Position numbers and translations under genes: made by a program | Source of the DNA: Haladaptatus paucihalophilus DX253 | GTDB taxonomy: Archaea > Halobacteriota > Halobacteria > Halobacteriales > Haladaptataceae | Length of the DNA stretch: 64,000 nt | Direction of reading: 5' to 3' | Assembly (NCBI RefSeq): GCF_000376445.1 | Contig: NZ_AQXI01000001.1 | Span: 2,133,734 to 2,197,733, forward strand | In this document: piece after piece, positions 179-61,697 of the stretch | Layout of the letters: each line of letters starts with the position of its first letter | How positions within the stretch are numbered: the first letter of the stretch is position 1 | Notes under the pieces: generated by a model | Database searches by the model: none | Seen by the model: only the letters and a program-made list of their open reading frames with translations | Told to the model about the DNA's origin: nothing

Positions 179-254
179 GCCAAGGTGGCAGAGTCCGGCC
201 GAACGCAGCGGCCTGCAGAGCCGCCCATCGCCGGTTCAAATCCGGCCCTTGGCT
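179..254 (+). tRNA. tRNA-Cys (anticodon GCA)
   Basis: The acceptor strands GCCAAGG (179-185) and CCTTGGC (247-253) pair fully, and the discriminator base is T254, as expected for tRNA-Cys. The anticodon stem GCGGC/GCCGC encloses CTGCAGA, giving anticodon GCA. A T-arm with GGTTCAAATCC is present. There is no encoded CCA. Its place just after 5S rRNA is the classic haloarchaeal arrangement. Confidence 0.95.
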
Positions 255-2503: not shown

Positions 2504-2619
2504 ACCCGGTCCTGTGTTCGGATGACTTATAATATCTACTGAACGACTTCGGCGAGCGTTCGTTTCTACGATACCCGTCTTCTTGCGACGCTCTCGATGT
2601 CGCGGTCCGCGAGAAGTAC

Positions 2620-2888
2620 GGGGTGGGGATTTGAATTACGCCCAAACGTTCCGGGTCGCTCACGTTCGTTCGCTTCCCGGGCATGCGTTTGGGCTCCTTC
2701 AAATCCTTCGAGTCGTTTCACTCCTCATCTACGTTCGCCGCGAGAAGTACGGGCTGGAAGGGATTTGAACGACGTCCGAGAACCTGCGCTCCGTGCAAAA
2801 CCTCGGTCTAATTCAAACCCCTTCAGGAGTATTCCCGCAGCTCACGAATTGTTCGCCGCGAGAAGTACGGGCTGGAAGGGATTTGAAC
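2620..2888 (-). repeat. Ladder of tRNA-Lys 3'-tail copies
   Basis: Three copies of the 3' end of tRNA-Lys (T-loop plus 3' acceptor strand) lie downstream of the tRNA in the same orientation: 2868-2888 and 2750-2770 are exact over 21 nt to tRNA positions 2991-3011, and 2620-2638 is degenerate. The spacing from copy to copy is 123, 118 and 130 nt. Copies are followed (minus strand) by TACTTCTCGCGG. The last unit also holds an element (2639-2687) that is nearly identical to one after tRNA-Arg at 60926-60976. No protein reading of this stretch (2504-2990) is convincing. Confidence 0.8.
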
Positions 2889-2990
2889 CACCTGAAGACG
2901 CTTCCTCACTCGCGATGCTCGTGAGACTGCCTCTTCCATAACTCAAACCCTTCGAACCGCTTCGCTCGTCACCTTCGTTCCTCACAGAAG

Positions 2991-60039: not shown

Positions 60040-60615
60040 ATGGTAAACGAACTGGGTCTGGGACTCGGGCTACTACTCGCCCTCGTCGTGGTGGCTCTGC
60101 ACTACACGAAGGGTACCGAGTGGCGAATCGCAGACGACATCTCCCAAGAAGTGCTCGACCGACGAGCGGCGAGCGTTCCCGAAACCAACTTCCCCGAACC
60201 GATGAACCGGTCCATCGGCGGTGGCGGTGCTGTCGCTATCGGCGGCGGTGCGGAGGGCGAACTCGCCGATGAAGGTGCCGAGGAGGAGGACGAAGGCTTC
60301 GACCCGTCCGCAATCCCGGAGGACGAAGTCGAGTACTTCGAAGTCGAGTACGTCAACGAAGGCGAAACCATCGAAGTCGCCAGCAACGAAACCATCCTCG
60401 AAGCGGGTGAGGACGAAGGCTGGGACCTACCGTACTCCTGCCGGGAAGGTCAGTGTCTGTCCTGTGGTGCGCGCATCGCGGAGGGCGACCCCGACGACAT
60501 CGTTCACAGCAACAACGACACGCTCAGCGACGAGGAACTCGACAACGGATACTTCCTCTCCTGTACCGCCTACCCGCAGGCGGACCTCAGCGTCGAGACG
60601 AACGAAACGCCGTAA
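60040..60615 (+). CDS. Membrane-anchored [2Fe-2S] ferredoxin
   Basis: A 191-residue protein. One N-terminal membrane helix (about 5-20) is followed by a Gly/Glu-rich linker and a plant-type ferredoxin domain from about residue 100. Ligands are Cys134, Cys139, Cys142 and Cys175 (SCREGQCLSCGA and LSCTAYP), the full C-X4-C-X2-C...C set. It carries electrons at the membrane. ATG 60040 is supported by GTTAAACC near 60010-60017. Charged N-linked sequons occur (SNETI). Confidence 0.9.
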   Translation: MVNELGLGLGLLLALVVVALHYTKGTEWRIADDISQEVLDRRAASVPETNFPEPMNRSIGGGGAVAIGGGAEGELADEGAEEEDEGFDPSAIPEDEVEYFEVEYVNEGETIEVASNETILEAGEDEGWDLPYSCREGQCLSCGARIAEGDPDDIVHSNNDTLSDEELDNGYFLSCTAYPQADLSVETNETP

Positions 60616-60811
60616 ACACCATCCCATTCGTTTCTCCACGATTTCACCCGGAGAGCCGACTTTCTCCCTTATTCACGTCGTTCATATCCCAGCGAGCGGT
60701 ATGGCTCTCGTGAAATTCGTGTTCCGACGATGACCGCCCACCATCGAGTAGCGACGGTGACGGTTGACGCAGACACAAAACTAAAGCCCTCGTGGGCAAA
60801 CGGAAGACTGA

Positions 60812-60884
60812 GGGCGCGTAGCTCAGTGGACAGAGTTCTTGGTTCCGGACCAAGATGTCGCGGGTTCAAATCCCGTCGCGCCCG
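60812..60884 (+). tRNA. tRNA-Arg (anticodon CCG)
   Basis: GGGCGCG (60812-60818) pairs with CGCGCCC (60877-60883); discriminator G60884. The anticodon loop TTCCGGA in stem CTTGG/CCAAG gives CCG. T-arm GCGGGTTCAAATCCCG is intact. A TATA-like AAAACTAAAG is about 26-35 nt upstream. No CCA is encoded. Confidence 0.94.
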
Positions 60885-60925
60885 TACAGCGAGCGAACCG
60901 GACGAGGGACTTTTACCAGACCAGT

Positions 60926-61125
60926 CGCATGCCCGGGAAACGAACGAATGTGAGTGACCCGGAACGTCTGGGCGTGGTTCAAATCCCGTCGCGCCCGTAT
61001 CGGTTTCGACGAACGTCGGTGAGTCGAAATCGAATTCCGGGACGGATTCTGGAGGCGACAAGTCACAGCCCGCACAGCGAAGCGAGCAGGAATGTCTTGG
61101 TGTGGTTCAAATCCCGTCGCGTCCG
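60926..61125 (+). repeat. Ladder of tRNA-Arg 3'-tail copies
   Basis: Two copies of the tRNA-Arg 3' end follow the tRNA in the same direction: 60977-60999 is exact over 23 nt to tRNA positions 60864-60886, and 61105-61125 differs at one position. Spacing is 113 and 128 nt. The element 60926-60976 just before the first copy, starting CGCATGCCCGGGAA, is nearly identical to the minus-strand element 2687-2639 in the tRNA-Lys ladder. No convincing protein gene lies in 60885-61260. Confidence 0.8.
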
Positions 61126-61260
61126 CTCATTTTGTGAGCTCTGTGAACCCCAGATGGACCCGAATAACGCCGTTCCTACTCGTCGATATCGCGCTTCAGG
61201 GAGGCGCTACCCGGTTCGTAGCTGCCAATTACTTAATTTTTCGGCCGCTGTGGTTGGCGT

Positions 61261-61419
61261 ATGCCCTTCGAGTGCTTTCCAGAATACGCGGTCCGCAATC
61301 CCTCCGAGTGTCCCGTCGTTCGTCAGGTTTCCCGCCACGAATGGGTGGCCCGAACCGAGGAGGGGCGCTTCGCCTCCGGTTCGACGCCCGCCAGCGCCAT
61401 CGCACGGTTGAAACGGTAA
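61261..61419 (+). CDS. Possible 52-residue small protein
   Basis: The frame starts MPFECFPEYAVRNPSECPVV and ends ASAIARLKR. A TATA-like TTAATTTTT at 61233-61241 lies 20-28 nt upstream, as for a leaderless gene. Two Cys (5 and 17) are 12 residues apart. The codon use resembles the neighbours. It shows no known family; it is too short to be sure. Confidence 0.5.
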   Translation: MPFECFPEYAVRNPSECPVVRQVSRHEWVARTEEGRFASGSTPASAIARLKR

Positions 61420-61697
61420 TCTCCCGCGACGCCGTGCGAAACCGCTCGCTATCGGGACATCCGTTCGGAGAGCAGGGCATCACGATGCTGGAAACGACGT
61501 ATTAAACTCGCTTAGCAACCGTTTAACTCACTGATGGTCAGTTTCGTGCTTCTCGTCGGTTTCGGCCGCCCGTGGTCCCTTGTCCGGTATCGAGACGAGC
61601 GAACGACGAGCAGCGCGCCGCACGGATTGCGGCATATCTTACCGAACCGTTTGCGATTCGAAATATTCAAATCGACCTATTTCGTTTCGAAAGTACG

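Follow-up and report, generated by a model that had tools for sequence, protein, structure and literature searches.

Integron cassettes are joined in arrays at attC sites, imperfect hairpins with a variable tip whose R' core is G|TT. In the IS200/605 group, a guide sequence at the foot of a hairpin pairs with the cleavage site. The integrons reported to date from archaea are of the IntI kind (PMC9668308). The tRNA-targeting elements of haloarchaea have been reviewed (PMC8371274), and a Haloquadratum prophage carries a 22-nt copy of the tRNA tail at its far end (PMC3119063). In Methanopyrus kandleri, about one in two tRNA genes is followed, at a distance of about 10 bp, by a palindromic motif (PMC5217627). 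Here we describe ladders of tail copies and hairpins directly behind haloarchaeal tRNA genes, of which a literature search, with most subscription journals outside its reach, found no earlier description.

Two ladders and the anatomy of their units

The window, by which we mean the whole stretch of 64,000 nucleotides of Haladaptatus paucihalophilus DX253 that was analysed, holds ladders at tRNA-Arg(ccg) and tRNA-Lys(ttt). A unit begins at T54, in either the tRNA itself or a tail copy, and stops one base short of the next T54; its parts follow one another in a fixed order: the tail (T54 to base 73), a hairpin A that usually has a T-rich start, an arm, a hairpin B and then the next tail copy. 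The features are as follows.

60812-60884, plus strand: tRNA-Arg(ccg), with its tail, T54-73, at 60865-60884
60865-60977, plus strand: Arg unit 1, T54 to G53, 113 nt; missing in the sister genome G008, where the same flanks are joined
60904-60917, plus strand: arm of Arg unit 1, a degenerate inverted tail copy (gagggacttttacc)
60918-60977, plus strand: hairpin B of Arg unit 1, class B1, which includes 60926-60976
60978-60997, plus strand: Arg tail copy 1, 20/20 identity to tRNA-Arg T54-73
60998-61105, plus strand: Arg unit 2, trailer hairpin A, arm and B1; orthologous unit in G008
about 61040-61052 and about 61053-61105, plus strand: arm and hairpin B1 of Arg unit 2
61106-61125, plus strand: Arg tail copy 2, 19/20 identity
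2990-3064, minus strand: tRNA-Lys(ttt), with its tail, T54-73, at 3010-2991
2868-2990, minus strand: Lys unit 1, B2-class hairpin, ending in an identical tail copy at 2887-2868
2750-2867, minus strand: Lys unit 2, B3-class hairpin, ending in an identical tail copy at 2769-2750
2619-2749, minus strand: Lys unit 3, hairpin A, arm, B1 (2687-2639) and a degenerate tail copy at 2635-2619

A sequence-only reading of the window had drawn attention to a near-identical element at the two tRNAs, and its coordinates are borne out: 60926-60976 on the plus strand and 2687-2639 on the minus strand have four mismatches over about 49 nt. It was also correct in placing the element directly 5' of a tail copy at both tRNAs (60978-60997, and the degenerate copy at 2635-2619), and in noting that the adjacent tail agrees with its own tRNA, at Arg as at Lys. 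When the Arg copy was compared with its own genome by BLAST, the match (E=4e-18) was far above chance, and further strong matches lie 3' of the tRNAs Ser-gga, Pro-cgg, Arg-gcg and Gly-tcc. The element sits within hairpin B, in the middle of a repeating unit of 105-181 nt. What the earlier reading did not contain is the arm 5' of the element that is complementary to the tail, the exact border at T54, and the presence of far more than two ladders.

The Arg and Lys ladders are instances of a general feature of the tRNAs of this genome. Among its 47 tRNAs, as called by ARAGORN, 23 have between one and four copies of their own tail downstream, a copy being counted when it lies no more than 900 nt behind the tRNA and has no more than 4 mismatches in 21, and in two sister genomes the same holds for 28/50 and 15/44 tRNAs. 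Foreign tails used as controls gave 1/1514, 3/1726 and 4/1316 pairs in the three genomes, and control regions upstream of the tRNAs gave 2 in each genome. Scans of 15 kb behind about 120 tRNAs of three genomes found 77 tail copies at distances up to 700 nt and 6 farther away. At the tRNA-Cys of the window (179-254), neither G008 nor G002 has a tail copy.

The units have a median length of 140 nt (5-95% range 105-181), and the identity of the copies to the tRNA begins sharply at T54. Position 53 agrees with the tRNA's own base at 0.88 and with that of a random tRNA at 0.86, being a near-universal G before tail copies, and position 52 is barely above random (0.60 own vs 0.52 random); the border reads G53|TTCRAATC. 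None of the 83 copies in the 15-kb scans of the three genomes is followed by CCA; the copies therefore derive from the gene and not from the mature tRNA, which rules out a retro-copy of a mature tRNA of the kind seen in SINE-like, tRNA-derived retroelements. In the arm, the T-loop region is present as an inverted copy, which is complementary to the next tail copy. The arm agrees more closely with its own tRNA than with others (4.1 vs 3.1 of 8 positions, p=1e-13) and tracks the changes of the tRNA at positions 57 and 59; this covariation is also seen in other families with a different T-loop, where GTTCAACTCC goes with GGAGTTGAA, GTTCAATTCC with GGAATTGA, and GTTCAAGTCC with GGACTTGAAC.

Folding and exchange of hairpin B

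Arm, hairpin B and tail are together able to fold as one long imperfect hairpin. In 54 B1 units, 12 of the 19 pairs are altered on both sides, giving a covariation score of 0.262 vs 0.138 for shuffled sets (0/500 shuffles reach the observed value) and far lower values for slid controls, in a set picked by motifs at two inner pairs and with part of the signal accounted for by tRNA differences that are copied into arm and tail. The inner stem of the B1 hairpin covaries as well, for example at columns 15-30. Changes in the arm, when read on the tRNA-sense strand, produce G.T at 61/430 and A.C at 28/599 (p=1e-7), and leaving out position 54 gives 28/304 vs 26/594 (p=0.007); because G.T is the commoner of the two, the changes point to the tRNA-sense strand as the one that probably folds. 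A search of 60500-61500 of the window against Rfam at E up to 1 returned the tRNA itself and nothing else, and for a BHB intron or an H/ACA or C/D guide RNA there was no motif by eye and no Rfam match.

Hairpin B comes in a few classes, which are common to different genera and retain their internal-loop sequences across them. The classes B1 (AGACGAG-T-CGCAYGCCCG..GGAACGTCTCG), B2 (GGAAGARGCAGTCTC..GAGGAAGCGTCTTC) and B3 (GACCGAGGTTCTG..CAGGTTCTCGG) each recur at unrelated tRNAs. Where different tRNAs have an alike B, the similarity of their A hairpins is at background (median 0.09 vs 0.09); where units of the same tRNA have an alike A, B is often unrelated (median B similarity 0.26). The same pattern is seen in orthologous units, in which A and arm are kept and B is completely different, with the switch confined between arm and tail: Ser-cga has B2 in this genome and B1 in G008, and Ser-gga provides a second example. 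An alike B with unrelated A, together with an alike A with different B, shows B to be the exchanged module, and tail, A and arm to belong to the tRNA. As the B hairpins of different tRNAs are no more similar inside one genome than across genomes, exchange across tRNAs does not appear to be both frequent and recent, and a recent spread of B within the genome is unsupported.

These results modify the first interpretation of the shared element, according to which a small non-autonomous element targets the 3' ends of tRNA genes. For a sequence that is indeed dispersed and variable across species this was a fair reading, but B is swapped inside a larger unit. Nor does the picture of one element placed at several tRNAs with a target duplication describe units in which tail, hairpin A and arm are all tRNA-specific and B alone is common.

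Distribution and gene content of the ladders

The B1 core pattern occurs at 32 places in 16 of the 28 genomes of the family, and 30 of these were retrieved as loci. In agreement with the expectation that copies of the element would be found behind tRNA genes, 29 of the 30 lie 46-270 nt behind an annotated tRNA, in most cases followed by a close copy of its tail; the remaining one follows a tRNA-Leu fragment and a tail. Among the haloarchaeal B1 matches in the GTDB collection, nearly all are likewise tRNA-linked, in Haladaptatus, Halorussus, Halomicrococcus, Halorubrum, Halolamina, Natronolimnohabitans, Halovenus and others; two are without a nearby annotated tRNA (L131 and L175), the latter, from Haladaptatus sp. 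DYF46, being an inverted B1 hairpin past an apparent Val-gac trailer. Bacterial matches in the collection have no such tRNA and tail. In an evenly drawn sample of the phylum the pattern is present in 3/295 genomes, all inside the order, and tRNA-Lys ladders are present in several families of that order.

Patterns for B1, B2, B3 and the arm-to-tail palindrome gave no haloarchaeal-looking match in viral contigs, where the matches are not tRNA-linked, and two weak partial matches in a phage collection; with the structure in no viral or phage record searched, a viral or provirus carrier is rejected. Plasmids gave eleven matches, and the three that were inspected are one full unit, one B1 hairpin without a tRNA, and one partial match. 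The full unit, with its tail copy, lies on a megaplasmid of Natrinema thermotolerans (CP031304.1; L369, 1330-1463) behind a split-looking tRNA-Glu, which has an insertion in the anticodon arm and is not called by ARAGORN. The B1 hairpin without tRNA or tail is on a plasmid of Halorussus halophilus (L370), about 200 nt before a TFB gene. In another Halorussus (G027, L087) a B1 hairpin is preceded by a TFB-like ORF and a partial tRNA-Leu. At tRNA-Glu-ctc of G002 (L479), a partial 3' half of tRNA-Glu is found at +5735 (5.7 kb) and is followed by a unit. It is likely that in these last two cases, where far copies stand behind partial tRNAs, classical integrated elements have displaced the ladder.

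Almost all units in the 15-kb scans are gene-free. The Phe ladder of this genome (L388, contig C1 of G000 near 2325744, minus strand) has inside it a gene for a 461-aa protein, named by eye as an MFS-like transporter. The tail copy on one side of the gene, at +280, is degenerate; that on the other side, at +1938, is perfect and follows an arm and a hairpin B. G008 has the MFS gene beside tRNA-Phe without any tail copy, and G002 is without the gene. The gene may perhaps be just a native neighbour, and its position in the ladder is suggestive at most of a gene cassette. In the same region, a 78-bp direct repeat (cttaccgcatctgaaaagaacttttagtttcgattcgaaac...) at about +3270 and +6777 surrounds a 3.5-kb block with two large ORFs, and both copies match the flank in G008 and G002. 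At tRNA-Val-tac of this genome (L382), a tail copy is separated from an older unit by about 2.6 kb with two sense ORFs, one of 207 aa that has a TAT-like signal and one of 246 aa; this insert ends without a hairpin of its own and has no match in the G008 and G002 regions. After the comparison with these two genomes we downgraded both candidate gene cassettes, the MFS gene being native in G008 and the Val insert being without a hairpin.

Turnover, candidate agents and known systems

Orthologous ladders vary in the number of their units among sister species. At Arg-ccg, an additional unit of 113 nt adjoins the tRNA in this genome, and unit 2 and the flank are common with G008. At Lys-ttt the hairpins are B2, B3 and B1 in this genome, three identical B3 (111-nt units) and then B1 in G008, B3 only in G002, and none in G004; B2 is absent at this tRNA from the other Haladaptatus genomes compared. 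In 19 ladders vs 3, copies farther from the tRNA have diverged more than nearer ones (p=0.0009), a polarity that fits growth at the tRNA. Gain and loss of units are formally difficult to distinguish, since a clean empty site is what recombination between tails leaves, too.

We regard it as close to an even call, slightly on the doubtful side, that the ladders are tRNA-anchored arrays of gene-free, cassette-like mobile units. The simplest single agent compatible with the data would, we infer, be a site-specific recombinase that acts on the T-loop core G53|TTCRAATC. A crossover between two direct cores, those of the tRNA tail and a tail copy or of a circular unit, would add or remove a unit and would always leave a complete tRNA. 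The incoming tail would become part of the tRNA, so that units with a matching tail alone would survive, and tail, A and arm would for this reason stay tRNA-specific. A crossover at inverted cores, in arm and tail, would swap B between units and leave the tRNA-specific parts untouched. The full version of this model, in which one recombinase uses the universal T-loop core in both orientations, and tRNA genes serve throughout the haloarchaea as landing platforms for cassettes, gene-free but occasionally with genes, that have their folded ends adapted anew to every tRNA, is offered tentatively, as possible rather than probable.

The ladders could also have arisen by host recombination with no dedicated enzyme: tails and A hairpins would be where slippage or unequal crossing-over takes place, B would spread by gene conversion in polyploid cells, and hairpin-templated (quasi-palindrome) correction would maintain the complementarity of the arm. 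Exact tandem repeats, found at Ser-tga and at Lys in G008, are what such a process would leave, as is the Gly-ccc ladder of G008, in which the tail and 36 nt of A are repeated exactly and divergence sets in from the arm on. In keeping with this explanation, no recombinase gene came to light beside the units. We nevertheless place this explanation on the unlikely side, since the T54 border is identical at all tRNAs, B is replaced cleanly with only about 9 bp of T-loop homology on each side, and host recombination gives no account of the internal-loop sequences of B that are kept across genera.

Those conserved internal-loop motifs would be readily understood if the hairpins were functional in the primary tRNA transcript, in processing, in termination or as a switch of the tRNA fold in which the tRNA's own T-arm and the tail copy would be alternative pairing partners of the arm. 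The tight covariation, the arm antisense to the T-arm and the tRNA-sense strand as the one apparently folded are in keeping with such a trailer RNA. Set against it are the presence or absence of units at the same tRNA among sister species, the many tRNAs without units, and the interchangeability of the B classes, and we judge it unlikely. That the tail copies are attR sites left by integrated viruses or plasmids since deleted, for which the 22-nt far-end duplication of the Haloquadratum prophage (PMC3119063) offers a precedent, is very improbable given the narrow range of unit lengths (5-95% 105-181 nt), the same internal anatomy at all tRNAs and the absence of the structure from viral contigs; random deletions would not produce such units. 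Hardly more credible is a CRISPR- or casposon-like process, in which a Cas1-type enzyme would insert about 100 nt beside the tRNA as a 'leader' and duplicate the 20-nt tail: it would yield the direct tail repeat, the tRNA-proximal extra unit at Arg-ccg and the distal divergence, but the interiors are not random inserts unrelated to their target, arm and often A being copied from the local tRNA and trailer, and B changes within existing units.

Whichever agent is responsible, a regular, fast-changing structure directly follows as many as about half of a haloarchaeal genome's tRNA genes. Should the recombination model be true, a cassette system with next to no genes would have tRNA genes as its platforms, and this would bear on why tRNA 3' ends are common integration sites and on the origin of integron-type sites; should the structure act as RNA instead, it would be an unrecognised trailer in which the T-loop competes with its own antisense.

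At the Arg ladder, no Rfam model of a structured RNA other than the tRNA matches. The motif of Methanopyrus kandleri is short (CGTTA-N9-TAACG) and has neither tail copies nor a ladder. Haloarchaeal PATEs and IS200-IS605 MITEs are, like the units, small, palindromic and non-autonomous; PATEs, however, insert without target duplication and are not tRNA-bound, whereas the ladders repeat a 20-nt tRNA tail at every unit. With the tRNA-targeting integrative elements of haloarchaea, which have tyrosine integrases of the SNJ2 or HF2 type, the ladders share the use of the tRNA 3' end and a second copy of the tRNA 3' tail at their far end. Such elements are kilobases long and usually have an integrase, whereas the ladder units, with their arm-B hairpin, are mostly of about 110-140 nt and gene-free, 105-181 nt (5-95% range) leaving no room for an integrase or other genes.

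Set beside integron cassette arrays, the ladders differ in that the units are nearly all gene-free, the anchor is a tRNA T-loop and not attI, and the core is tRNA-owned and tRNA-specific, with the tRNA-sense strand apparently the folded one; the core GTTCRAATC, with C at the fourth position, also departs from the integron consensus GTTRRRY. The likeness, read from sequence, is limited to array and hairpin anatomy: units are joined at a short core (G|TT in the attC R' core, G53|TTC here), they end in an imperfect hairpin with a variable tip, and growth would be at the anchored end. Without claiming membership, we regard the ladders as comparable in layout to an integron cassette array.
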